Assembly: GCA_021234155.1 (NCBI GenBank)
Contig: JAJEKV010000041.1
Location: 10,003,018-10,067,017 of the forward strand
DNA from: Isoetes taiwanensis
Lineage: Eukaryota > Streptophyta > Lycopodiopsida > Isoetales > Isoetaceae
Direction: 5' to 3'
DNA: 64,000 nt
Shown here: in pieces, positions 7,827 to 56,379 of the stretch
Layout of the letters: each line of letters opens with the position of its first letter
Numbering within the stretch: the first letter of the stretch is position 1
The notes under the pieces: generated by a model
Database searches by the model: none
Told to the model about the DNA's origin: nothing
Seen by the model: the letters and a program-made list of their open reading frames with translations, nothing else
Position numbers and translations under genes: made by a program

Positions 7827-7852
7827 AAAAAAAAAAAAAAAAAAAAAAAAAA
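7827..7852. other. 26-nt A-run forming a rearrangement junction
   Basis: Exactly as long as the LINE poly(A) tail at 2026-2051 and followed by the same flank, but preceded by the 2.4-kb repeat instead of a LINE body. It therefore looks like a LINE tail whose element was lost or bypassed by recombination or template switching at the A-run. Confidence 0.75.
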
Positions 7853-7916
7853 GGATTACATCTATTCGCAATACAAAGATTTATAATTATAAAAAGATAT
7901 CTAAGAACTAAGTTCC

Positions 7917-9161
7917 TCATCGTCGTCCATAGGCTCGAGCTGGTGGCCAGTAGCGCATCAAGGTGGTGCTGGGGCTAGCAGAGAGGGCGGCTCGAGCTGC
8001 TGCCTCCGGTGGCAAGCAAGTGGCCAAGGGTGCCGCCACAAGGAGTCGCATACTAGCGCAGCCCGCCACGTCCCCCAATGCCACTATAGCCAGATCTCGT
8101 CGGACCAAAGTGACAGTGGTGGCATGGTAATCAATCTTCTTATGTCCCGCCAAGGTGGATAACGCGCGGAGCGCCCACCAAGATGCTTCAGAAGAAGGCC
8201 CCAAGTTCTTGGAGAAGAACAAGACCTCACCTTGCCGAAAGGGTGAAAGGAAGAATCGGGTCAAATGGTTGCCCATTGCCCTAATTTGCGGATCCCTGGA
8301 GGTCTCTGCTTCCTTTTCCAAGTTAACAGGGATCTTCTCCTGCTCTGCCTCTTCCTTGTCATCCCTAAGACTTATCTTGGTGTCCCAAAAGTCTTCCTCC
8401 TCTTGATCCACCCCTCCCATAGTGATCTGTAAAGGCTGAACTGCAGGAGGAGGGCGCATGTGAGCCGCAAACTGCTCCTCTGGAGGCTGGGGTGCATCAG
8501 TCAATAGGAATTGCCGAAGAGACAAAGGGGTCTCAACGGGTTCTAGCTCTTCTAGCCGAAATACTAACAAGTTCTTGACTTGTGGCGGATGCACAACAGG
8601 TGTCGTAAAGTCGAGGAAGTCATCCTGGCAGTACTCCGCAAGATCATAGAGGACCTCTATCTTGCGGCGGCCCCGCATATCAGCAATGACGCGGTAAGCC
8701 CATATAATGTCCTCTAGAATCAGGTACTCTTGTTTGTTCAAGAGTACGGCAGGAAGGAGGTTTAACCCTTCGAGTTTGAGGGCTTTATCCCGCGCTGCCG
8801 GTGCTTCGGTGGCTAGCTCCTTCCACCGTGCAAAGTCATGCTCGTCGACGACTTCATCGTCTTCCGGGTCAGGAGGTACTGGTGTAGAAGAATGCTCGGC
8901 AGCTATCTGCTCATCCTCAATATACTGGTCCATGATGATGGCCAGCGCAAATCGAGCCTCAAAACAGACTTCCCGATCTATAGTAACGATAGGGAGGTCG
9001 GTTCCTCGTCTCCTTATGCCCTTAATGACATTCCGGGCATGATCATCACCTCCTAACATCTCGAGCAAAGTGTGGAAGTCGAGGTAGAGCTGTGAGTCGT
9101 CTTCATTGAAGACACAAGCAGGTACGATCTCCTCACAGTAGAATTGTTCGCATTGAATCAT
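7917..9161 (-). CDS. Uncharacterised acidic plant protein (left copy)
   Basis: A 414-codon ORF starting with ATG at 9161 (MIQCEQFYCEE...). I do not recognise the family. The N-terminal ~85 residues look like a small folded domain (YLDFHTLLEMLGGDDHARN, then IKGIRRRGTDLPIVTIDREV). An acidic proline-rich linker follows, then a second block rich in Leu and Ile (YLILEDIIWAYRVIADMRGR), then another acidic stretch (DQEEEDFWDTKI, DDKEEAEQEK). The N-terminal block is loosely reminiscent of BRO-N/KilA-N-like domains, but this is only an impression. The C-terminal ~50 residues may be out of frame: another frame ends in EPMDDDEELSS and a stop at 7901-7903, more in character with the rest. The LINE tail or A-run lies ~65 bp beyond its 3' end. 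The right copy is broken by indels. Confidence 0.55.
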   Translation of the reverse strand: MIQCEQFYCEEIVPACVFNEDDSQLYLDFHTLLEMLGGDDHARNVIKGIRRRGTDLPIVTIDREVCFEARFALAIIMDQYIEDEQIAAEHSSTPVPPDPEDDEVVDEHDFARWKELATEAPAARDKALKLEGLNLLPAVLLNKQEYLILEDIIWAYRVIADMRGRRKIEVLYDLAEYCQDDFLDFTTPVVHPPQVKNLLVFRLEELEPVETPLSLRQFLLTDAPQPPEEQFAAHMRPPPAVQPLQITMGGVDQEEEDFWDTKISLRDDKEEAEQEKIPVNLEKEAETSRDPQIRAMGNHLTRFFLSPFRQGEVLFFSKNLGPSSEASWWALRALSTLAGHKKIDYHATTVTLVRRDLAIVALGDVAGCASMRLLVAAPLATCLPPEAAARAALSASPSTTLMRYWPPARAYGRR

Positions 9162-40658: not shown

Positions 40659-42667
40659 TCCATATTGGCATTCATCCTGCCCTCACTAAGCTCATTATGG
40701 GATTAAACCAAAAAGCCACTTCATGTGTTATTGTCAATGGGACTCCTTCTGTTTTTTTCCACATTCAAAGAGGGGTGAGACAAGGCTGCCCCTTGGCTCC
40801 CTACCTCTTCATAATTGCTGCTGAAGTTCTCACCAAAATGGTCCTCTCTTATCAAGACAAGGGTCTGCTCCAAGGCCTTCAAATGCCTGATTCCAATAAA
40901 CAGCTTTCCATTCTTCAATATGCTGATGATACCTTTACCATGTTGAGAGCTGATAATGACAATATGAAGAATTTTATGGACTCAGATTCTAAATTTAGTG
41001 TCTGCCTCGATCCACCTCAATTATGCTAATGTTCTATCCTAGATGGCTCATATCCGCACCTTAATACATATGGCATCAAATTTGTTCCTAATGGCCAATA
41101 CCGACTCTTTAGGCCTCCCCCTTGCGCTCATATGTCCCATAAGATTGCTTGGCACCTCCTCGATTAATAGGATCGTGAAAAAGCTTATCCTCCTTAAAGG
41201 TTCTCTCTCTCCCCGGCCGGGAGGATTTTGATTGCCAACTCTGTCCTTGCCAAGAGCCATGTCTATTTCTCTTCCGCTTTGATTGTCGACAAGGCTTCCT
41301 ATAATAAAATTGAGCAATGTATTAAAGAGTATATTTGGCAAGGTACACACCTTTCTCGCTCGGGATCACCGACTCATAGTAAAAAGTCGGGGTTTGGGAT
41401 GTAAATCCTTATTTCTACAGCCCCAAGTGCTTGGGGCCAAAACTGTGGAAAGCCATCTCCGGTTTCCAATCTCCTCGCTATGGATTTTATTAGGTTCTGG
41501 TTTAATAAAAGTAAACCCTTAGGAAGTCCCTCCCTCAAGCACCAGCTCCCAGATTCTGCTTTCTATGAGTTCAAATGTGCAGCTAATACTTCTCCTCTCC
41601 TTAGAAGTATCTTTAAAGCATGGGAGAAAGTGGCTGCTAACTTTACTCATGACAAATTGTCCAATTCAAGGAGAGATACCTCCATATTTTGGTCTCCCCA
41701 GATGGCCCCTTCCTCCTACTGCTATGGCTATCTCTGTCACCCTACATGTTACAAAAAATGGCACTCTGCCAATATTTTGCATGTCAGAGACCTCATTGAT
41801 GATGAGGAAAACTGGATTCCCTGGGAAGTGATCAAGAAGAAAGTAGGAGGGGATGCTACTCATAGATCGATATATAAGAAAGTGGTGCTCACCTACTCCC
41901 CTTTCTTAGGCAAAGATGGTACGGGGGAGAGTCACTCCCCCCTGAACTGGTTTTTCAAGGTTAAGAGGAGCTACAAAGTATCTAAGATTTACCATGCATG
42001 TCTTCCCCAAAAAAGCAGAAAGCATGCCTCTCTCCAGGGCTTATCTTCCAAGAATTTCAAGAAGATTCTTTATTCTAGTTGGAAATCCTATGCCAGCCCT
42101 AAGATAAAAGTGTTCTCTTGGCTCATCCTGCACAGTGCTATCCTGAGTAACACTAACATGATCAAGAGAAATTTTAAGACTGTCCATAGTGCTCTCTGCC
42201 AGCTTTGTAACAATCATGATGAATCTGTGCTACACATTTTCACTTGTCAAAGGATCCAGGACTTTTGGAGGTGGTTGACTCGGTCAGGCCTGAAAATCCC
42301 TGATTTCGATTCCATAACCAGTATTTCTCAATTTTTTCAGCTCCAGGATTCCAATGTCAATTGTACAGTTCTACAACTAGCCCTGTGGATTATCTGGAAA
42401 CATAGAAATAATGTGGCTTTGGCAAACAGGAAGTGTGACCTTAACTGGATGAAGCTCAATTTCCAATTTGAACTCATTAGATGTGCTATGGCTCATAAGG
42501 CCCTTAAATTGGAGAAGTTTGATACAGATTGGTTGAATTGGGGATCCTTCAAGTCTAACTTCTTTATTATTCATTCTGACTCTCTGATTAACTTGAATGC
42601 CTTTGTGGATTGCAGCCTTTTTGAACAGTGTGGTTCAGGTGTTCAGGGGATCAATCCTACCGGATGA
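40659..42667 (+). pseudogene. LINE ORF2 remnant: RT core to zf-RVT domain
   Basis: RT motifs are present: RGVRQGCPLAPYLF (about 40770-40810) and the catalytic QYADDT box (about 40917-40934), both intact. Frameshifts follow between 41010 and 41480. An open part from 41480 to 42667 then carries the connector and a zinc-binding CQLCNNHDESVLHIFTC-type motif (about 42198-42250). Not translatable as one protein. Confidence 0.85.
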
Positions 42668-43488: not shown

Positions 43489-45229
43489 AGTTTTTGGAAA
43501 GATATAGGTAGGATTAGTTAGTGCATCATTTGGGAAAAATAAAAAATAGAAAAAGGCAAAATACAAAAAAACTTGAACAAGAAGAAAACAAAAAATTAAG
43601 TTGATTTCAGTAAGTTGAGTTCTGCCTTTAAGTTTGCTGCTCGTGTGCTAACTGGTTTCTAGTGTTGCAAGGACAAAAGGACTGTGCAGGTTGTGGTCAA
43701 GTGCAGGAGTGATTTAATACTAACCATAGCTCCATGCAGGTGCATCTGAACATGTTGCTCACACATCTCTTTCATCACATCATATCATGCTTCATCATCT
43801 AGAGTTGCTGCCATCACCTCCACAACAGCAACTTCTCTAAACTAACAAGCTTTATCATCACATGCAGGTGCATCATTATGTATACTTCCATATATCATCT
43901 GATCAAGAGTTGACCTTATTACATCTGAAGACCCTCCACATCCTCATAAATTCCTAAGCTGCAGCCACACTACCATCCTGCAGCTCTTCATTACTAAAGA
44001 AATTTACTTTCCATGCAGGTTCATCTGAAAAGAGCATCATTCACATATACACTCATAATGCCAGATCTATCACTTTCAAATCCATCGGCAGGTCATTGAG
44101 TTGCCAAACATATTCTCACATTGGCAACTAGCTGGAGTTATGTCATGAAGTACAAACAGCAAGTCAAAGGGGCTGGTAGACCAGCCTTTTCTTTCAGTTT
44201 GGCATAATGCTGCCATGCTATGGCAGCATGGAAGAGCTGAGCACATGTTTGCACTAATCCTCTCACTTTGATATTGGTTTGCAAGACAATAGGGAAATGC
44301 TTCACTAGCATACATCCTTTGGTATGTGATCATTTGTGTTCTTGGCATCTTTGTGCAGTTTGACTCCTATTCCACATTCCCCATACCTTCCACCACCATA
44401 AAATACCCATTAGACTTTGAATTTCATGCATACAATTCCTTCCCAAGTCAAACTTGGCCTTGAAAATTCTTTCTAGTCAAAGTACACCTTCAAGAATCAT
44501 CCATTTGCCACACACCACTCACGCCACTTCATCACCATCAAAAAGTTCAAAGCTTCACTTGACTTGGTCATACATGTGGTCAAGAAGTCAACTTTTCATG
44601 CAACATGGTCAAAAAAAGGGTGAAAGTTGCAAAATCCCTAAGGGAAATGTCCAAAACTCAAGTGTGCCCCAGGAAATGTCAAAAAGTTGCATTTCACAAG
44701 AATTGACCCATGAAGGTGCATTCTATGTGCCAAGTCACCATACACTTCATTCCATGTGCCAAATCACCACACATCATCATTCTAATCATGCCATGTCACA
44801 TTTCCATTGCCATGTTCAAAGTCTAAATTTATTCCAAAGCTTCAAGTTTGCACTCATAAGATGATATATCACTATGCCACATCATCATTGTCACTGCCAC
44901 AATCACCATCCACATGTCACACACATCATGTCCACGTCACTTGCAATTTTGACTAGAAAGAATTTTCCAAGCCCAAGTTGATTGACACGTCATCATCACC
45001 ATTTGCCATGTCATGATCACCTAGCCTTGTCATCACCTCCACATGCCACATCATTCATTCCCTAGGTCATTCTTTGGACCAAAATTGAAAGTGCTCTTTT
45101 GCAAAAAAAGATTCCAGAATCTTCTAGAATGCAAAAAAAGATTCCCTTTGAAAAAAAGAAAATTGAAAAAAGGCCTTATTTTGAGCCTAGTATTTGCCTT
45201 CTAGGGAATCGTGCCATAGGCCTTGGGGT
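43489..45229 (+). other. Long 3' untranslated region of the Gypsy element
   Basis: No ORF of note. 43728-44040 contains several copies of a CCATGCAGGT(G/T)CATC motif, and 44440-45080 is rich in CCAC/CATCA and TGCCATGTCA-type repeats. A- and G-rich stretches at 45140-45175 could include polypurine tracts. Assigned to the element by position only. Confidence 0.4.
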
Positions 45230-45790
45230 GTAAAAAATTTTCCTATCTACCCCCCAAGCCTATTTTCCTTTCCCCACCAATCCCCATGCCACGTGGAACA
45301 TCCCATGCGCGCAGGGGCGTTGAGGTACCGGATCCCACGCGGGATATTGCACGCAATTATTATAAATACTGGATTTTCTTTTTCTATATATACCTGGTCG
45401 CCCAAACCTAATCAAGCCTGTGGGATATTTGCTCGAAGCTGCCAAGAACCCTAAATCTGGAAACTGCCAAGATCCGTCCAATTCTCTCAAAACAACCATG
45501 CAATCATGATCTTAAATGGCCGAATTACCCTGTATAATGCCAAGAATGCATCAGAGAAGCAAAAAGACAGAGAATTGAATTGAATTAGCCAAGAACGCAA
45601 TGAAATCAGGGAATTTCAAAAGGGGCTTTCGTGTACGTAAGAAATTGGAGGGCTTTGAGGCAAAGAAGAGATTTCTCGGCTTTGAAGAAGGACCGCTTGA
45701 TGATCCCGAAGCTTGATCCCACCTCCAATGTTTACCTTTGATCCGATTATTGACTTAATTCTCCGGATTGTTTGAATGTTTACCTATTTG
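45230..45790 (+). promoter_or_regulatory. LTR-like promoter region (candidate 3' LTR of the second Gypsy element)
   Basis: TGTAAAAAATTTTCC follows TTGGGG at 45230, a possible LTR start. Two TATA-like boxes (TATAAATAC near 45361 and TATATATACC near 45384) lie at a promoter-like distance from a leader-like stretch. The right boundary cannot be fixed and no second LTR is available for comparison. Confidence 0.35.
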
Positions 45791-45793
45791 ACT

Positions 45794-46167
45794 CTACCAA
45801 GACCTTGAGCTTGGGATATGTATTGTTATCTCCTCGAAAGTGTTTGATTCAATTGAAAATCCCACCATTATTATCGCCAATGATTTTTCCTCAAAAACCC
45901 TTCTGGCGGGGGTTTTTACCCCGACAAAGAATAAGTTTGCTGCACTCCTTGTGGGTCCCATAGGCCGATTGGCCTCAGTGGACGATAAAAAATCATTCTC
46001 ATTCTCATTCTCTTCCACGGGTTCCCCTGCTTCGTAATCATCATCCCGATCCTGATACTCCCCGCATCGCTGACCATAGTCTTGCTCTGAGGGTACCGAT
46101 CGTCCCCTTCAGAATTGCTGGTTATTATGTCCTCGATTTCTTCGAGCTCATCGTCTGTAAGACGGCA
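45794..46167 (-). pseudogene. Minus-strand exon-like fragment, acidic
   Basis: After an acceptor-like TCTTACAG (about 46168-46175 on the minus strand) the sequence reads DDELEEIEDIITSNSEGDD. After a one-base frame change it continues EYQDRDDDYEAGEPVEENE and further to the stop at 45794. Strand and acidity resemble the unknown gene on the far side of the LINE (55120-56379), so it could be a downstream exon of that gene separated by the LINE insertion. That link is inference. Confidence 0.3.
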
Positions 46168-46336
46168 AGAATAAATATACAACATTGAACGATTGCTTAT
46201 ACTCCAAACTCTAAAAGAGGCAAACAAGTATCATAGGGAAGCAATGTAACTGTACTCAACAATACAATAATCATACAATATAAGGAAATAGCACATATAT
46301 TATATGATGGCTTATAAAAAAAAATTGCCAATCAAA

Positions 46337-46345
46337 GATTACATC
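46337..46345. repeat. Left target-site duplication of the large LINE
   Basis: GATTACATC, identical to 55056-55064 directly after the poly(A) tail. Confidence 0.65.
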
Positions 46346-46387
46346 CGATACCACTACCTGTGGAAAAGAGAGAAGGCGCCGCATACC

Positions 46388-46549
46388 GCATGCCAACTCC
46401 TGCCATGCTTGAGCCGGCTCCCACAAGCTCCTCTACATCGGTCTATCTAGAGCAGGGTAAGATGGAGCATGCCAACTCTGCCATGCTCGATTTGAGCGAG
46501 CTCTCCTAAGCTCCTCTACATCGGCCTATCTAGAGCAGGGTAAGATGGA
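46388..46549. repeat. 79-bp tandem repeat in the LINE 5' region
   Basis: Units at 46388-46466 and 46467-46549, both containing GCATGCCAACTC, AAGCTCCTCTACATCGG and CTATCTAGAGCAGGGTAAGA. A partial GGAGTTGAGCA(T/A)(C/T)GCTGCTCC motif recurs twice just downstream. Tandem units in this position are common in LINE 5' UTRs, where they act as promoters. Confidence 0.8.
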
Positions 46550-46733
46550 GTTGAGCATCGCTGCTCCTCCTCCTGGTTTCCTCTCTCTCTCTACTCAAGC
46601 AACTCTAGGTGCAGAGGGCGGAGCTTTAAAGGCTTATCGCCCAACTCCTCCTTTTACAGCAGATTAAGAAGGAGTTGAGCAATGCTGCTCCTCCTGACTT
46701 CGTATCACTTTAAACAGGAAAATATTGGCCGGA

Positions 46734-47030
46734 ATGAGCAATCTAAGTCCACATTTATCCAGGCACAGAAGCTATTCTAGTGCTAGGTTCTTCACCATAA
46801 TCATTTGTGGGGATCGTCATATATGTGGCCGGTTGGAGGGCGAGTTCAGCCAACTTTGGGAAGCCCTTGTTCTAGATAGAGTCTTTCCTGATTATCTCTT
46901 TCAAGCAGAAGCCTGGCTTACGCCACAAATTCCGATCCAACTAATCGAGTATTGGCTGGGCGACTATATGGGAGATAGGAATATCTCTGCTGCTGGCATT
47001 TTCCATGTCTACTGCCAATGGGGCCCCTAA
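46734..47030 (+). CDS. Small ORF a of the LINE 5' region (module copy 1)
   Basis: 98 codons from ATG. Core motif CGRLEGEFSQLWEALVLDR, followed by a less conserved stretch ending IFHVYCQW. It shares spacing and key residues (G, L, G, LW, L, D) with the ORFs at 47325 and 47743. No known domain recognised. Confidence 0.45.
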   Translation: MSNLSPHLSRHRSYSSARFFTIIICGDRHICGRLEGEFSQLWEALVLDRVFPDYLFQAEAWLTPQIPIQLIEYWLGDYMGDRNISAAGIFHVYCQWGP

Positions 47031-47324
47031 AAATCACCTTAAAATCTACACTTAGCTAGATCTGCATGGATGTGGATGGATCCAAAACTCCTGTAGTCAA
47101 CTCTTGACTAGTCTCGCATGAAGGGTCCATTTATCCCTTTGCTGCTGGATTAGCTAGCTGACTCCTGGGGCTTTTAGCCTCTGCAACTTCCATCAATTCA
47201 TATGTGTTTGCTGAACCCACTTTATGCACTATAATCATTCCTCTGGCTCTGTTTCTTTATAAGCCCCTTTGTTGGATCTGCAAAGACACAAACCCTCAAG
47301 TGCCCGTGATCTTCCGATGTCTCA

Positions 47325-47711
47325 ATGGGACTTCCCCTCGCCGCTTTCTTAACCTCTCCATCCTCTCCAGTAAACTATCCTCCATCCCCTTCTGATATTG
47401 AGATCTCTAGATACTTTGTCACTATCGAGGGCTCCCAACAGTTACCCTATGGATGGTTGGAAGGCCCTGCTGCAGAGTTGTGGACATATTTAATTGATGA
47501 GCGGCTGGTCCTAGAGATTTACTTCGTTGGAGAGAGCGGCACTCCTGCTGTAAATCCAGAGGAAACACTGAGGTTGTGGAGGGTCGAGTTTCTTGGAGTT
47601 GATCGTCCGGCCTTTGCCACCTTCTACGTCCACAGTGCCTGGATGATAGATTCGGTTAAGTTGGAATTACATAAGGTGCCTCTCCCATTTGAGATCATAT
47701 CTGTAGACTGA
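47325..47711 (+). CDS. Small ORF b of the LINE 5' region (module copy 2)
   Basis: 128 codons from ATG. Ser/Pro-rich start, then YGWLEGPAAELWTYLIDERL and later ATFYVHSAWMID. Best preserved of the three copies. Unknown function; an RNA-binding or capsid-like role would be guesswork. Confidence 0.5.
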   Translation: MGLPLAAFLTSPSSPVNYPPSPSDIEISRYFVTIEGSQQLPYGWLEGPAAELWTYLIDERLVLEIYFVGESGTPAVNPEETLRLWRVEFLGVDRPAFATFYVHSAWMIDSVKLELHKVPLPFEIISVD

Positions 47712-47742
47712 AACCTGTCTAGAATGATTTCTCGTGACCTCA

Positions 47743-48100
47743 ATGGATCAAACCCCTTCTGTTACCTCATTGCATTCATCTTCCTCTAATCCATCTTCTT
47801 AATCTGCCTTACTCCCCGCCTTACATAGTTCGCACAGCCATTCTTGCTAATTACAACTATATCTGGTGGGGCTGGATCAGAGGGGATCTGGAGGACATCT
47901 GGACATCCTTGATTGACAGACAAATCCTTTTTCTAGATCAATTTTACTGTGTTGGTGGCCTGCAACTGCTGGGAGACCTTCACAATACAAGGAGGGTAGT
48001 CGACATTTGCCCTAGGATCCCTCTCACCCTTACCTCTTCAAGGCTTTCTTGTTCACCGTATATGGCCGAAAGTGATAGATACCGGGTTGAGCTATACTAG
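47743..48100 (+). pseudogene. Small ORF c of the LINE 5' region (module copy 3, frameshifted)
   Basis: Starts MDQTPSVTSLHSSSSNPSS, then a frameshift. The next frame gives WWGWIRGDLEDIWTSLIDRQ, aligned with the core of copies a and b. A second frameshift precedes FLVHRIWPKVID, which aligns with FYVHSAWMID of copy b. Broken. Confidence 0.45.
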
Positions 48101-48189
48101 GATGGAGATCAATCGCACCAGCTATGCAGAGGGCAAATGGTCTCCCTCACCCACCGGACTCCGCCCAAGGGATAATCACTCAAAGGGGC

Positions 48190-49980
48190 TTATCTCTCGC
48201 CCATACTCGAAGTGGCCAATAGAATAAGATTTTTACAGATTCATCGTTTAATAGGCAAGCTCCTTCGTGGATCCCCAAGCTCGAGAGATCCGGCGACCCC
48301 GGGACTTGTTTGCAGATCCGTAACCCCGCCAAAGGTGCGTGCTTTGGGCAACTCTTATTTCGCAATCATTGTCAATCTACCTAAGGAATCGAGATCCCGC
48401 TCGTAAAGGGCATCATATCCACCATGCATGGGCGCTTCTTTGTGCGTAAATGGCGACCGTGCTTTAACCCCATGCTCCCGTGACGCCTTTCTTTATCCAG
48501 CTTTGGGTCTCTCGAGGGGTTACGCTTGAACTCGACGAGAGAACACTTAAAACTCGACGACCTCTATTGGAGAGTATGTCCGCTTCGACAACAGAGTGAG
48601 GAAGTGCCCAGTTATGTGTGGCAATAGATCCGCTTCAAGCCCATTCCAAAAGCCATCGAAGTTTGAGGGATTCTACAAAGAAAAATGTGGTGTTCCCTCC
48701 GATACCTCCGAAGTCCGCCTCCCATCCGCACTAGATGTGGTTTCGTGAGTCCACCCAAATGCTATGTGCCCATCAATAAAGGAATGCGACAAAGGGAAGG
48801 GGCTTGAGTGCACCGAATCGCTTCGATCAAATCCCACCAACGATCGTTTTTTAAAGGGGAATGTTCTACCGCCACTTGTTCTATCGCCACTCCGATAACA
48901 ATGGGTCTCGCCACTCCTCGATAACAACGGATTCGCCACTCCTGATAACAATGGGTCTGCCACTCGATAACAAATGTGACCGCCACTTCGATAACAATGG
49001 ATTCAAGACCGGCGGAACCGTGATGAATCGGACCTTGTTGGCCTTGATAAGATGGATTCATTGCATCCTTCATTACATCCTTTTGAGCAAATCGATATGC
49101 TGGAGCCATCCACTGGTCATGGCAGGGCTGCATATATTACTCCTGTTATGGTTTTATCTGACTCTGCCCCTCCCACCGATCCCTGTGCTGAGATTAACAT
49201 GTTTCATGATCCCAATGCTGGCTCCATCTCTGTTACTCCTCCCAGATTGGAAGACATGAAGAAAACATATCGCAAGGTCAAATGGGCAGATTTGGTGGAA
49301 GACCCAGTAGTGGCCGATTACATGCCTAGATCTGCTGATCACCCTGCCATAATTGATGATGAGCATGATGAATCCACTCATATTGATCTCTCACAGGCTG
49401 CAGGCACTACTGATGAAGGGCAAATGGCATCGGCTACTGGCCATGATGGCTCTGAGCCCACAAACTTGCCATTCTTGCAGAATTCTCATGAACTAGAGAA
49501 GCTCCATAAGCCCACAAATCCAACTTCTAGTCAGGGGGAAAGAACAGAGGAGACACAGGGAGAAGCAGCAAGGAATCAGCAGCTTGCTTGGTGAAGACAT
49601 ACTAGCAACCGATGAACAAGATCTGTATGCAGCCAGGAATCTTCTTGAAGACATCAGAAAGAATCCCCTCTATGCTGAGATGGAAATTGTCAAACAGTTC
49701 ATTAAGGAGAAAATCCCAAGTGTTGCTGATCCAATTGCCGCAACAGTGGCCGATAAAACTACAATGGATGTTGGCCCCGCTGAGGACTCAATTAGAAGAG
49801 GTACCCCTCGGGCTACACGGGGAAAAGCAAAGGAATTGAGCTACAGGTGATCCCCCCCTCTGCCTCAGTGGAAAAAAAGAAACGTAGAAGGGGTAGACGT
49901 AGCACAAGGAGAACGCAATCAGAGGACCTCTTCATGGACGAGGCCAGTAGCCCTGGATATCTGGATGATAAGTAATCTTG
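48190..49980 (+). pseudogene. LINE ORF1 remnant (DUF4283-like N-terminal part, acidic tail)
   Basis: Fragments LGNSYFAIIVNL (about 48348-48383), FFVRKWRPCFNPM (about 48435-48473) and TPFFIQLWVSRGVTLEL (about 48483-48535) follow the order of the DUF4283 domain found in plant LINE ORF1/gag-like proteins. After a scrambled stretch a long acidic region is open (49052-49594), then continues in another frame to 49850 (EDILATDEQDLYAARNLLED). A basic patch (KKKRRRGRR-like) lies near 49870-49900. Several stops and frameshifts. Confidence 0.55.
48880..49010. repeat. Short CGATAACAA(T/C)GG-type reiteration inside ORF1
   Basis: Six to seven imperfect ~25-bp units of the type CGCCACT(CC)(T/C)GATAACAATGG(G/A)T. 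The reiteration disrupts the ORF1 frame and looks like slippage expansion. Confidence 0.6.
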
Positions 49981-50781
49981 TGATGGATAGTACTACATAT
50001 TCGGATAAGCTAAACTTTTTGTATGGTACAGGATGCAGTAGAGAATGCCTAAAGCAAACGTTGATGGTCGTGGAAGCTAAAGGGGGTAAGATCTCACCTT
50101 ATGCTCCCAATCTCCGATTGCAATTTGCATAATCCTACATCCCCCCACCCCATGGTTTGTGAGCTATTTTCAACTTGCTTATATAATGATAAGTACGTTT
50201 CGTAACTGGTTCTATTTCTATTGTTGTTTCAAGAAAGGGCTAATGTTAGTAAGGAAGCTATATAATACTGGGATTGGCCATATGGAAAATGGGGGTGGGC
50301 AACACCATGTCATGCTTAGAGGTCATCTCGTATTTGCCAGCAACAACTTCGAAATTTGGAAAATTAGTGGTTGTCAAGATATCAATGTGCCACCTAGTAA
50401 GGGACAATTTAAGGAACCACTTGGGGGCACCACTAGCATTTCTGGGTGGGCCGTGGACCTATGTTTGCCACAATTGTGCGATAGGTACCCAACCTATAGG
50501 TACCCAACCCATTCGTGTGAAGGTGATAGGCCATTCATATCCAAAGTGTTATGGTCTCCTGGAAGGGGTTTGAAACACTATTGGCAATCATATGCCATGT
50601 CCTCGGGGAAGAAATGGCGTCCAGTGTACACCAATGCTCCAATGATGGGGGGGTATAAGACGAGTGAACATGGGGGGCTAATGTATAAACCCGAGGAGGG
50701 CCCAAGAATCTATGCTAAACAAACACCATCTATGGTGGTAGGTACTACTTAGAGCCCGTTCCTATCTTAAATCTTAAACAT

Positions 50782-51931
50782 ATGAAGATAGTTTCTTGGA
50801 ATTTACGCGGAATCAAGGGTACCCTCAAGAGAGCTAGGGTCCTTGCTGCTATTAGATCTATGAAAGCTGACATCATTCTGCTTCAGGAACATAGACTCCC
50901 AACTTTTGAAGCAACATGCCTCGGTAAATGGGTTAGCGATAGCTATGATTCAGTTACATGCCCCGCGCATGGTACTAAAGGGGGTACAGGCATTCTATGG
51001 AAGGGCCAGTCACCCATTGGCTCGTACTGTAGCATCAGAAAGGGGATGGTAGATGGCGTGCGCTTTATTTGATACCTTAGACGTTAAGTGGGGACTTATT
51101 AATATTTATGCATCCAACAAGCCCGCTGAGAGAGCGGCCCTCTGGCTAGAAATAGAAACGTGGATTTTGCACCAGCATCATGAGATTAAGAACTGGATAT
51201 TGGGAGGTGATCTTAATATGATGGATGTGTGGGATCAAAAGATAGGGTTACATAGGAATTTGACAGGAGAGGAGCAAACGACTTAGCAATCTCTCATTAA
51301 CAATGTTGGATTCAATTTAGTTCCCCCATCCAATGTATCCTTCTCCTGGTCAAACAAGCAGAAGGGACAAGACCGAATATATTGTTTGCTGGATAGATTT
51401 TACATGGCTAATCCTTCTGCTCCCTTTATGGACCGTAGCTATGTTACTGGTGACCTGGCATTCTCTCATTCTGATCACGCGCCGCAACATCTGACTATTG
51501 AGGGAGTTCCTACTGTGGGGGAGAGGAAGAATGTCCCCTTTAAGTTTAATACTGCCTGGCTGGGTAAAGAGGCCTTCTGTAAACCATTTAAAGAATACCT
51601 TCTCTCGATTAAAGTATGCGAGTCGCCTAGTATGGAAACTTGGGCCAAATTGCTCCGTCTGATGAAAGACTGGGCAAAAGAATGGGGAAGAAAAAAAGCT
51701 TTGGAGTTTAAAAAGAATAAAGATGAGGTCTATAATATGCTAAGAATTGTAAGGCAAGATCTTTTGGTGAATCCATATTGTGAGGAAAGTCAAAAGCTGG
51801 AGGAAGAATTGGAGGCCAAATCGGCTAAGGCGATCGAGGAGGATGAAGCTAGAGGAGCAAAGCAGCTCGCTCTAAAACTAAATGGTATGCCGAGTTGGAT
51901 CATGAAAACTCTAAGTGCTTCTTTCGCTTAG
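50782..51931 (+). pseudogene. LINE ORF2 endonuclease domain (broken)
   Basis: ATG at 50782 begins MKIVSWNLRGIKG, the standard start of the AP-endonuclease-like domain. Then LLQEH, a frame change near 51060, WILGGDLNMMD (about 51200) and SHSDHAPQHL (about 51468-51500), which hold the catalytic Asn, Glu, Asp and His. Stops at 51284 and the frame change make it non-functional. Confidence 0.85.
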
Positions 51932-53582
51932 CAAAAGCGAGATCGGTGAAAATAGCATCACATCTATGCTTGACGATAAACAAGAGGTTTTGCAGGATCA
52001 AAAGGAGATCTCTGCTTACATCAGGAACAGTTTTCAAGATATGTTCAGGGAGGACCCTATTCCCTCCTCAGATAGCTTTTTAAGGTATCCCGTGATGGAT
52101 AAATTAGATTGGAGTAATGGTATCACATCAGAGGATAACTTGCGCCTCATGAGTGATCCCACCGAGGAGGAAATATATAAAACCTTATGTTCCCTTGCCC
52201 ATGGAAAGTCCCCGGGCCCAGATGGGTTCCCGCCTGAGTTCTTCCTGGAATTTTGGGAAGTGCTTGGTCCATTCTTTACAAGAGCAGTTAAGGGAGCTTG
52301 GGCTACAAGGTGTCTTCGTTCCTCCCTAACATCAGGATTCATTACATTAGTCCCTAAAGTTGACAGACCCCAACACCTAGGGGAGTGGAGGCCCATAGCT
52401 CTAACCAATGTATTGTATAAGGTTATTGCTAAAACTATAGCCAATAGATTGAAGCCTATCCTCAATAGGCTTATTGGCAATGAGCAATCAAGATTCTTGC
52501 CGGGTAGATCCATACTTGATAACTATCTGGCTGCGAGGGAAGGTCTTCACTGGGCCAAAAGATCTCAACAAAAGTGTATTCTACTTTAGATGGACTTTCG
52601 GAAAGCATACGACACTTTGAGGTGGTCAGGACTAAGGGAAGTTATGGCTAGACTGGGTTTCGATCCCCAGTTTATCAAGCTGGCCTTTGGACTAAACAAG
52701 TTTGTTACGGCTTCGTTCAATCAACGGACAACCATCGACTTTTCCACATGAGAAAGGGAATCGACAAGGTTGCCCATTAGCACCCTACCTGCTTTCTCCT
52801 AATGGCTAATCTCTTAAACAAACTTATCCGAGCAAAGTCATGGACGGTTCTCTTAATGGGCTTCAGCTTCCTCTTAATGAGGAGAGATTGACAATAATGC
52901 AATATCTGCATGATACCTTCGCCTTCCCTCGTATGATGACTTGAGTTTCGCTGCCTTTAAAGATTGCCTTCTGTTGTTTGAAGTAGTTGCTGGAATTGGG
53001 CTCAATGCCAGTAAGTGTGCAATTATGTGGCCATTTGAGAAGGATGTAGACGCCAGAGTTAACTCTTTAGGTTTTCAGATCATCAAAGCAGGGGAAGCTA
53101 CCAAGCTGCTTGGGCTACCACTTGTGGTATCAGATAACCTTAAAGGTTTGTGGACTCCGATTCTTGATAAGCTACGAAAAAGGGTAGGGTTATGGTCCTC
53201 TAAAGGCCTTTCCATTGCAGGAAGAATAATAAGTACCAATGCTATACTAGCCTCTTCCCATATGTATTACTCTTCAATTATACTAGCTCAAAAAGGGGTA
53301 TATAGTCAAATTCAAGCTATTATCAGGAAGTTTATCTGGGGAGGCATGCATCTGGTTGCCTGGGCTGAGATATGCAGAGATAGGAGATGTGGGGGCCTAG
53401 GCTATAAAGATATAATGACACATGCCCGCATTTTATCACCCAAAAGTGTGTGGAGAGCAATCAAGGGAGGCACCTCCCCAAGCCTCAATTTTGTGAGATA
53501 TTGGCTTGGACTCAGAACTCGAAAGGAAAGCCCTCCCTCCCAAGAGATGAAGTTGGGGCCATGTTCTTTAGATATAGGGTAG
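51915..53582 (+). pseudogene. LINE ORF2 reverse transcriptase domain (broken, catalytic box altered)
   Basis: Conserved motifs include SPGPDGFPPEFF, WRPIALTNVLYKVIAKTIAN, QSRFLPGRSILDN and MDFRKAYDTL. The expected RQGCPLAP region (about 52760-52790) is frameshifted. The catalytic box reads QYLHDT (about 52902-52919) instead of QYADDT, so one of the two metal-binding aspartates is lost. The 3' part (52941-53582) matches the left LINE copy. Confidence 0.85.
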
Positions 53583-53650
53583 CTCCCGACCTCTCCAAAG
53601 GATGCTAAAGATTCTACAGCCCGTGTGAAGTCCAACAACTATTCTCCCCT

Positions 53651-54622
53651 ATGGAGCCTACATTAGATGCAGGAAACCTTAGCATCTTCTGGAATATTCA
53701 TGTATGGAAAAGGGGTGATCTTCCTCTTGCCTTGTCTCACCCCCGTATCTTCATCAAATGGAAGGACGCAGGCATTACTAGATTGCACCACCTATGGAGG
53801 AATGATAGGTGGACATCATGGTCCGTGTTCAAAACTCTAATCAGAATCCGTGAGGCCGATAGAAAGATCCTTAAGGAAATCTTAAAGAATGTACATGTTC
53901 TTTCTGGTGTTTGTGGCCCAGGGGAGAAGTGGTTATGTCATGGCTCAGAAAAGTATGAAGTTGGTAAGATCTATCACTTACTTATCCAACCAAGTCCTCT
54001 TAAAGCTATCAATGCTCTTGGGTTGGGTGAGAGAGAAGTGGTCAAGCTCATGGGTGATTCCTGGACTACCCTTTGCTCGAGAAGGATTCAATACTTTAGG
54101 TGGCTAGCCTTACAAGGTGGTCTTAATACGCATATCAGGCTAATCGAAAGAGGCACTGTTGTTCCATTGGAGTGTCCACTTGGCTGTTCAACACCAGAGG
54201 ATACATCACATCTCTTCTTCTGTCCACGTATTATGTGCTTCTGGCAGTGGGTGGCACCCATTATTGGGCTGGAAAATACCGACCTAGATTGGCCCCGAAT
54301 AATCACGTCCAATGAAAACGACAAAATATCTGCAACGCTGGTTAATATTGCCTTGTGGGTGATATGGAAGCATAGATGTGAGGTTGCTCTTGGAGGAAAA
54401 GAAATCTCTCTAGCAAAACTAAAGAACTGGTTCAACTACGAAGTTGCATTGATGGCTCTTGCACACCACAGGAAAATGGGGAGTGCATATCACAAAGATT
54501 TGGATGGGATTGGAAGACTCGAAGGGTTCTATACATTCTTCAGGTGCAACTGGGATGGGAAAAAGGAAGATGAACATACTCTGACTGGGGTGGTGGAAGT
54601 AGGTGAGGATAACTCTTGCTAG
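53651..54622 (+). CDS. LINE ORF2 C-terminal zf-RVT part (right copy)
   Basis: 323 codons matching codons 212-534 of the ORF at 4-1608 with few changes. Upstream, indels at 53515-53640 separate it from the RT part. Zinc-binding CPLGC...H...C near 54177-54220. Confidence 0.8.
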   Translation: MEPTLDAGNLSIFWNIHVWKRGDLPLALSHPRIFIKWKDAGITRLHHLWRNDRWTSWSVFKTLIRIREADRKILKEILKNVHVLSGVCGPGEKWLCHGSEKYEVGKIYHLLIQPSPLKAINALGLGEREVVKLMGDSWTTLCSRRIQYFRWLALQGGLNTHIRLIERGTVVPLECPLGCSTPEDTSHLFFCPRIMCFWQWVAPIIGLENTDLDWPRIITSNENDKISATLVNIALWVIWKHRCEVALGGKEISLAKLKNWFNYEVALMALAHHRKMGSAYHKDLDGIGRLEGFYTFFRCNWDGKKEDEHTLTGVVEVGEDNSC

Positions 54623-55055
54623 TAATCATGGTGAGTTAATATGGTCTCCTCCTTTCTAAGATGACCACGGCATGGGGGTTCTGGAATGCTGGAGATAGTA
54701 CTCCTATAGTACCATCAGTAGGACACATGTAACTTTATGTAGTTGCACAATCCTTGTAGTACTGTGCTGATGAGGAAGAGGTGAGGGAAGCTAGGAGCTA
54801 GTTTCCTTTAGCCATAGTACAAATCATCACAGGAAGATGTGTGGTCATGCAACCGAGACCTGAGGTGCTGGTGCCCTATTAATAGGGAAGAAGTTGAGAT
54901 GGCCTTCACCAAAGTACAAGAACCTCTACCATGATTCACTCTCCTGATTGGAGTGATTTGACTTTATGTTGCTTTTCAAGCCGATCCATGGGGATCATGT
55001 ACTATATTTATAAATTAATAGAATCTCAACCTTACACTCAAAAAAAAAAAAAAGG

Positions 55056-55064
55056 GATTACATC
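55056..55064. repeat. Right target-site duplication of the large LINE
   Basis: GATTACATC directly after the A-run, identical to 46337-46345. Confidence 0.65.
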
Positions 55065-55120
55065 TATTCGCAATACAAAGATTTATAATTATAAAAAGAT
55101 ATCTAAGAACTAAGTTCCTC

Positions 55121-56379
55121 ATCGTCGTCCATAGGCTCGAAAAATGGGTGGCCTGGTGAGCGCATCAAGGTGGTGTCTTTGGGCTAGCGTGAGAGGGCGG
55201 CTCGAGCTGCTGCCTCCGGTGGCAAGCAAGTGGCCAAGGGTGCCGCCACAAGGAGTCACATACTAGCGCAGCCCGCCACGTCCCCCAATGCCACTATAGC
55301 CAGATCTCGTCGGACCAAAGTGACAGTGGTGGCATGGTAATCAATCTTCTTATGTCCCGCCAAGGTGGATAACGCGCGGAGCGCCCACCAAGATGCTTCA
55401 GAAGAAGGCCCCAAGTTCTTGGAGAAGAACAAGACCTCACCTTGCCGAAAGGGTGAAAGGAAGAATCGGGTCAAATGGTTGCCCATTGCCCTAATTTGCG
55501 GATCCCTGGAGGTCTCTGCTTCCTTTTCCAAGTTAACAGGGATCTTCTCCTGCTCTGCCTCTTCCTTGTCATCCCTAAGACTTATCTTGGTGTCCCAAAA
55601 GTCTTCCTCCTCTTGATCCACCCCTCCCATAGTGATCTGTAAAGGCTGAACTGCAGGAGGAGGGCGCATGTGAGCCGCAAACCGCCCTCCTCCGAGGCCG
55701 GGGTGCATCGACCAATAGGAATTGCCGGCGAGAGACAAAGGGGTCTCAACGGGTTCCGCTCTTCTAGCCGAAATACTAACAAGTTCTTGACTTGTGGCGG
55801 ATGCACAACAGTGTCGTAAAAGTCGAGGAAATCATCCCCGGCAAGACTCGCAAGATCATAGAGGACCTCTATCTTGCGGCGGCCCCGCATATCAGCAATG
55901 ACGCGGTAAGCCCATATAATGTCCTCTAGAATCAGGTACTCTTGTTTGTTCAAGAGTACGGCAGGAAGGAGGTTTAACCCTTCGAGTTTGAGGGTTTTAT
56001 CCTACATTTGCCGGCAAGGTTTTCCGGTGGCTAGCTCCTTCCACCGCAAAGTCTCGCCGTCGGCGACTTCATCGCCTTCCCAAGTTAGGAGGTACTGGTG
56101 TAGAAGAATGCTCGGCAGCTATCTGCTCATCCTCAATATACTGGTCCATGATGATGGCGGCCAAGAAATCGAAACCTCAAAACAGACTTCCCGATCTATA
56201 GTAACGATAGGGAGGTCGGTTCCTCGTCTCCTTATGCCCTTAATGACATTCCGGGCATGATCATCACCTCCTAACATCTCGAGCAAAGTGTGGAAGTCGA
56301 GGTAGAGCTGTGAGTCGTCTTCATTGAAGACACAAGCAGGTACGATCTCCTCACAGTAGAATTGTTCGCATTGAATCAT
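55121..56379 (-). pseudogene. Uncharacterised acidic-protein gene, right copy, broken by indels
   Basis: Counterpart of 7917-9161 with the same ATG (56379). The N-terminal domain is intact to about 56160. After that, clustered substitutions and indels (55130-55190, 55680-55760, 55805-55850, 56000-56100, 56158-56175) change the frame several times. The differences fall in GC-rich patches, while intervening stretches are almost identical to the left copy. Confidence 0.7.

Follow-up and report, generated by a model that had tools for sequence, protein, structure and literature searches.

Does the 5′ region of a plant L1 LINE code for more than the two ORFs that such elements are given in the available text of a review (PMC9033089)? 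The question is raised by a locus of Isoetes taiwanensis that lies in the window, by which we mean the whole stretch of 64,000 nucleotides analysed here (C1047:10003018-10067017 of the 1.66-Gb genome). A preliminary description of this DNA had proposed three tandem copies of a small-protein module in the 5′ region of a LINE. We find such a triplicated module, located within an L1 element and upstream of its ORF1 (Table 1).

Table 1. The module-bearing LINE in the window and its parts (coordinates are window positions).
Feature	Position	Strand	Basis or remark
LINE, plant L1 type, degenerate copy	about 46346-55055	+	~8.7 kb; target-site duplication (TSD) and A run; EN, RVT_1 and zf-RVT Pfam matches; piecewise DNA match to L036 over 46386-55053
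5′ TSD GATTACATC	46337-46345	+	9 bp, short; identical to 55056-55064
5′ leader with ~83-bp direct repeats	46386-46700	+	repeat search; alignments of L003, L004 and L009 begin at 46386
Module 1 ORF	46734-47030	+	98 aa, ~9 residues shorter than relatives
Module 2 ORF	47325-47711	+	128 aa, intact
Module 3, frameshifted in the window copy	47743-48100	+	start codon 47743; main homologous frame 47741-48100
DUF4283-type ORF1 N-terminal domain, frameshifted remnant	48203-48481	+	HMM matches on L001 (L001 base 1 = window 45825)
ORF1 C-terminal piece	49052-49594	+	
ORF2 in pieces: endonuclease, reverse transcriptase, zf-RVT	50782-54622	+	Pfam PF03372, PF00078, PF13966
A run at the 3′ end	55040-55053	+	14 nt
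3′ TSD GATTACATC	55056-55064	+	located after the A run

Several features place this element among the plant L1s. Endonuclease (EN) and reverse transcriptase (RT) domains, followed by zf-RVT, are found in ORF2 of both the window copy and an intact relative, and the window copy ends in an A run and is flanked by a TSD. An ORF1 of the DUF4283 type passes the Pfam cut-off in all three relatives scanned (L034, L036, L031), while the window copy retains only remnants of it. The element departs from the two-ORF count of plant L1s, as conserved extra module ORFs precede ORF1; since this count is usual and not defining, we class the element as a variant plant L1, of which the window copy is a decayed, module-bearing example. 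The suggestion that the modules account for its length of 8.7 kb holds in part, the leader with the modules making up about 1.8 kb. LINE 3′ ends with a common 3′ flank (GATTACATCTATTCGC...) recur at window positions 2053, 7854 and 55056 (regions 1-2080, 7838-8000 and 44500-55150); together with the 5′ flanks shared by a copy some 53 kb upstream, this flank points to duplicated segments and not to separate insertions. At window 41204-42496 there are fragments of another LINE, a distant one (the C-terminal part of RT and the zinc-finger region, ~30% identical), where a search of the window detected no module.

The first two ORFs named in the preliminary description are open in the window, and they share a core of the form G-W/R-L-E-G...L-W...L-V/I-D and an F-x-V-x-x-x-W block. 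For the third, the proposed start at 47743 is correct, because relatives begin module 3 with the same MDQTPSVTSLHSSSS peptide, but the frame meets a stop after only 19 codons. The similar stretch WWGWIRGDLEDIWTSLID is read in the frame of 47741 and the final block, FLVHRIW, in yet another; with its similarity spread over different frames, module 3 of the window copy is frameshifted. Some nine C-terminal residues that relatives possess are missing from module 1 of the window, and its CGRLEG reads CGWLEG in all six other module-1 sequences compared. A Ser/Pro-rich start, ascribed earlier to every module, is present in modules 2 and 3, while module 1 is Ser-rich in the window family and has a short tail or none in other lineages.

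Are the three segments related to each other? We built profiles from 6 sequences of module 1, 13 of module 2 and 10 of module 3, and obtained profile-profile E-values of 2.3e-15 (modules 1-2), 6.9e-9 (2-3) and 9e-5 (1-3). Scores no higher than those of shuffled controls had been named beforehand as a reason to abandon the idea. When the columns of one side were shuffled 200 times, none of the 200 shuffles reached the real score in any comparison: the real scores were 87.9, 53.5 and 30.7 (1-2, 2-3 and 1-3), against best shuffled scores of 20.7, 19.8 and 26.6 and reversed-alignment scores of 16.2, 17.8 and 12.1. Judged by these alignments, the three segments are homologous; the direct link between modules 1 and 3, for which the best shuffle came near the real score, is the weakest, with module 2 tying both together.

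A search of the genome with module 2, in which the best 150 of 1118 candidates were scored, brought 30 loci. Modules 2 and 3 occur in all 30, some in pieces and the window copy included, and module 1 is also present in ten (L001-L009 and L030), while the group of families L012-L029 has modules 2 and 3 only. These loci are not fully independent, as L001 and L002 are the window copy and its segmental duplicate, and L019 overlaps L022 in one place; LINE copies are moreover related by descent, so that locus counts overstate independent observations. DNA of the modules and of the 5′ part of the LINE is shared between the window copy and nine other close copies (L002-L010). L010 aligns only from 47067 on and has no module 1, whereas the alignments of L003, L004 and L009 begin at one 5′ edge. 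L002, situated 53 kb from the window copy, shares its flanks too and is thus a segmental duplicate rather than an independent insertion. The preliminary description had held that LINE copies lacking the segment would mark it as unrelated upstream DNA; the close copies possess it, and some lineages of the genome (L040, L041) lack it.

Downstream of the modules, the loci have the expected LINE order. A DUF4283-like ORF1 follows directly in 28 of the 30 loci, the exceptions being L011 and L022, of which L022 is the upstream unit of a tandem duplication. All six loci read over ten kb contain EN, RT and zf-RVT downstream, with EN 3.2-3.7 kb after module 2. In L034, uninterrupted stop-to-stop frames of 162, 129, 700 and 1293 aa correspond to module 2, module 3, ORF1 and ORF2, in this order; Pfam detects EN, RVT_1 and zf-RVT in its ORF2 and, with E-values of 8e-14 to 6e-18, DUF4283 in ORF1 of three relatives, and its ORF1 contains CSICGNRVHAGNVC, by eye a CX2CX4HX4C zinc-knuckle pattern. 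We also started from the other end of the element. Of the best 150 EN matches (9999 candidates), 47 are preceded, on their own strand and no more than 12 kb away, by a listed module 2, the distance being 2.9-4.4 kb for 43 of the 47; module 2 lies downstream in two cases and on the opposite strand in none. Both lists hold best matches only, so that EN matches left unpaired carry little weight. The modules share the sense strand of the LINE in the window and at the loci in which both were seen. At L019/L022 (C1019:5046023-5047488), a 1.1-kb unit of modules 2 and 3 has undergone recent tandem duplication, its halves being 98.9% identical. A seemingly giant fused LINE gene on C556 (150500-166000; L037, L038) was discarded, as its frames of 2543 and 1752 aa arise as artefacts from a stretch of N separating two LINE copies.

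The preliminary description had proposed a comparison of dN/dS among copies, and this ratio is below 1 in every usable pair. We considered intact modules only (module 1 in 7 of 10 loci, module 2 in 27 of 30, module 3 in 19 of 30), excluding stops, truncations and split matches, and took as usable those pairs with a dS between 0.05 and 1.2. The median ratio was 0.28 for module 1 (14 of 21 pairs usable), 0.15 for module 2 (84 of 351) and 0.09 for module 3 (42 of 171). In non-overlapping pairs (3, 12 and 7 for modules 1, 2 and 3), differences at codon positions 1/2/3 numbered 17/10/23, 51/44/136 and 45/22/114, respectively, the excess at third positions being weakest for module 1. In a lineage with a single module, dN was 0.06-0.12 and dS 1.2-2.3, the latter near saturation.

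This single-module lineage emerged from a query with module 1, for which the best 150 of 2285 candidates were scored. For 32 of these matches, a listed module 2 follows 265-490 bp downstream, and 74 of the 118 unpaired ones have a uniform frame of 92 or 94 aa, stop-free within the match in 61 cases. The three unpaired matches that we read (L050, L051, L052) contain a 92-aa frame of the form MK-F/H-FT...CGWLEG...LWESL...FH-T/V-HCSW...K-VYS, and no second module was found in them. In L050 and L051, a DUF4283-like ORF1 is located just downstream, and their ORF2 is 60-62% identical to that of the window over the first 82 EN residues and 44-54% over RT. L052 shares DNA with the start of the L050 ORF1 (67%), and neither DUF4283 nor EN was matched in its 6 kb. 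In all three loci, ACCCTAA immediately precedes the module ATG (L050:2580-2613, L051:1482-1515 and, in reverse, L052:1578-1611), a sequence that resembles the plant telo-box AAACCCTAA.

Further lineages differ in module number. In L055 and L056, an ORF of the module-1 type precedes a second module, after which comes ORF1; this second module matches the module-3 profile in L055 and that of module 2 in L056. In L053 and L054 no module other than module 1 is seen, and the 4 kb read there gave no match to DUF4283. The lineage of L040 and L041, to which L043 with its seemingly interrupted upstream part also belongs, has no module, a diverged ORF1 and an EN that is 77-78% identical to that of L034. 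As the L040 element, devoid of modules, has an open ORF2 frame of 1289 aa, not every plant L1 requires them. Four other loci (L039, L042, L044, L045) have neither a module nor an ORF1 of their own type and are uninformative, since they look 5′-truncated or interrupted. An unrooted tree built from the N-terminal region of ORF2 (~400 aa) places the family without modules among module-bearing ones, its attachment having a low support of 0.396; this family may have lost or replaced the modules, or may never have had them. The count of three modules seen in the window is one state among several and not universal.

How might these different states have arisen? An unrooted tree of 38 modules (supports given as SH-aLRT/UFBoot) sets the 13 sequences of module-1 type apart from all others with 96.8/99, and groups module 2 (13 sequences) with 91/96 and module 3 (10 sequences) with 100/100. 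The second modules of L055 and L056 fall with module 3 (92.6/96), for L056 unlike its profile match. Given these three groups, old tandem duplication within LINEs is the most likely origin. One plant L1 lineage has a single module directly ahead of its DUF4283 ORF1, and tandem duplication inside the element would have given rise to two and subsequently three diverged paralogues, before module number was reduced again. Reading the unrooted tree in this manner, the order would have led from a module-1-like ancestor to an ancestor of modules 2 and 3 and from there to these two modules.

In elements built in this way, the modules, lying upstream of ORF1 and ORF2, would be translated from a full-length, polycistronic LINE RNA. 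Little space separates the cistrons. In 17 of 19 loci (exceptions L004 and L009), the ATG that comes first after the module-3 stop, whatever its frame, is 0-24 nt away and in frame with ORF1, which leads us to consider it probable that translation of ORF1 begins by termination-reinitiation at the end of module 3. Stop/start overlaps serve termination-reinitiation in other LINEs. In the single-module lineage, the start of ORF2 overlaps the stop of ORF1, as AUGA (L051:3988-3991) or UAAUG (L050:5036-5040); these overlaps, like the spacing between module 3 and ORF1, would fit such a mechanism. L034 has more than 700 nt between ORF1 and ORF2. At the junction of modules 2 and 3, an in-frame module-3 ATG follows the module-2 stop by 9-43 nt in 23 of 24 loci, but it is the nearest ATG in only one of the 24 (L015); elsewhere an out-of-frame ATG is nearer, or none was found for module 3, which weakens the case for simple reinitiation there. 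The UGAUG or UAAUG present at many module-2 stops was rejected as the module-3 start, since its ATG is out of frame.

A different arrangement, in which modules and ORF1 form one polyprotein by stop-codon readthrough, could be imagined for L034, where module 2, module 3 and ORF1 are consecutive in one frame with single stops between them. However, the stop codon varies between TGA, TAA and TAG, and such differences among families argue against readthrough. The frame relation of modules 2 and 3 also shifts among relatives, L055 and L056 have module 1 and the next module in different frames, and module 3 and ORF1 have in-frame ATGs of their own in the loci just described, making readthrough improbable. 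The possibility that the similarity is due to chance, or that the region is unrelated DNA upstream of a 5′-truncated LINE, might draw on the broken frame of module 3 in the window. It is already refuted: no shuffle reached the real scores, L003, L004 and L009, which are independent copies, have a common 5′ edge at which their alignments begin, the 9-bp TSD encloses the whole block, and module order is the same in divergent families. The location in the 5′ leader of ORF1 could likewise suggest uORFs that act solely as translation regulators and whose peptide sequence is irrelevant. This we consider very improbable, as dN/dS is well below 1, the differences between copies are distributed over codon positions as given above, and residues are conserved across lineages in which the EN start is only about 60% identical.

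We favour, as probably correct, the reading that the modules are a family of LINE-encoded accessory proteins of about 90 residues, tandem-duplicated and translated ahead of ORF1. Their homology, position, purifying selection, tandem paralogy and distribution over lineages leave hardly any room for doubt. The main rival concerns their role: they might serve in counter-defence, for instance by suppressing RNA silencing, and so shield the LINE RNA instead of building the RNP. As would suit such a role, they are small, 5′-most, duplicated and diverged, with module 2 of the window only 33-38% identical to module 2 of other families, compared to 62-69% for the ORF2 N-terminal region between the window family and other module-bearing families, and their presence varies by lineage. 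Pairwise dN/dS, however, is low, with no sign of an arms race within families. A GW dipeptide might suggest an Argonaute hook, a candidate that we dropped because module 3 does not keep the motif, most families having GY, GT or GV there. Counter-defence is thus a rather unlikely explanation. Among the roles open to accessory proteins, we tentatively propose that they act together with ORF1p in the RNP and that modules 2 and 3 form an obligate pair; the co-occurrence of these two in all 30 loci and their distinct signatures point to this. Plant RNA viruses, too, duplicate and specialise small accessory genes.

Comparisons with known families provided no relative. Among 18 modules, no significant match was found in Pfam (best E 0.33), NCBIfam (0.072) or PHROGs (0.078); PDB sequences gave no match with the profile and a best E of 0.56 with module 2 alone, and module 2, sought in viral and prokaryote contigs, had no confirmed relative there. 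That the modules are diverged DUF4283 domains was rejected, since hhalign comparisons to the elements' own DUF4283 profile stayed at shuffle level (49, 14, 16 and 31 of 60 shuffles reached the real score for A1-A4) and no Pfam DUF4283 match was obtained. An HUH-type HxH motif in module 1 (FHTHCSW) was set aside, as its second H is not conserved. Two AlphaFold models of modules from three window sequences had low confidence, with mean pLDDT values of 37.7 and 42.4. Among the open-access PMC titles and abstract starts listed for this question, we found no report of such modules. By the sequence evidence assembled here, they constitute a real, selected and tandem-duplicated protein family within plant L1 LINEs that matches no known family in the databases searched.

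Module-bearing plant L1s would consequently encode more kinds of protein than the textbook two and, if this is true, the requirements for movement of some plant L1s are incompletely known. With somewhat less assurance than for the accessory-protein reading itself, we lean towards a view of some plant L1s as polycistronic retroelements with up to five ORFs, whose first cistrons would be a new accessory family that grew by tandem duplication to one, two and three paralogues and was later reduced, and whose ORF1 would be coupled to the last module by reinitiation. Lineages with zero, one, two and three modules in one genome make the role of the modules directly testable. LINE annotation would change as well, as the module region is easily mistaken for a non-coding 5′ UTR, and this short protein family would offer a new fold target.

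Primate L1s contain an additional reading frame, ORF0, which is antisense, has an antisense promoter and is primate-specific. The modules resemble it as a further small protein encoded in the 5′ region of an L1, but they are sense-strand and tandemly duplicated, a distinction drawn from the description of ORF0. Among plant elements, the poplar LINE Celine is reported in the available text of its description (PMC11288735) to have 6,114 bp, a 635-bp 5′ UTR and two ORFs. Judged by this text, the elements described here share with Celine and plant L1s a DUF4283 ORF1, an ORF2 with EN, RT and zf-RVT, an A-rich 3′ end and a TSD, but differ from the 6.1-kb, two-ORF Celine in one to three extra small ORFs before ORF1 and, for the window element, a length of about 8.7 kb (PMC11288735). 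Shuffling of ORF1 domains has been described for Jockey-group LINEs (PMC4120745, as far as its available text goes), and the lineage-specific gain and loss of 5′ coding modules, with a 5′ half evolving apart from ORF2, is a likeness to the modular ORF1s of Jockey, CR1 and L2 elements. In the portion of that work available, the extra domains of Jockey, CR1 and L2, PHD or esterase, lie within ORF1 or ORF2 and have known folds (PMC4120745), whereas the modules of the plant L1s described here are separate ORFs without a known relative.
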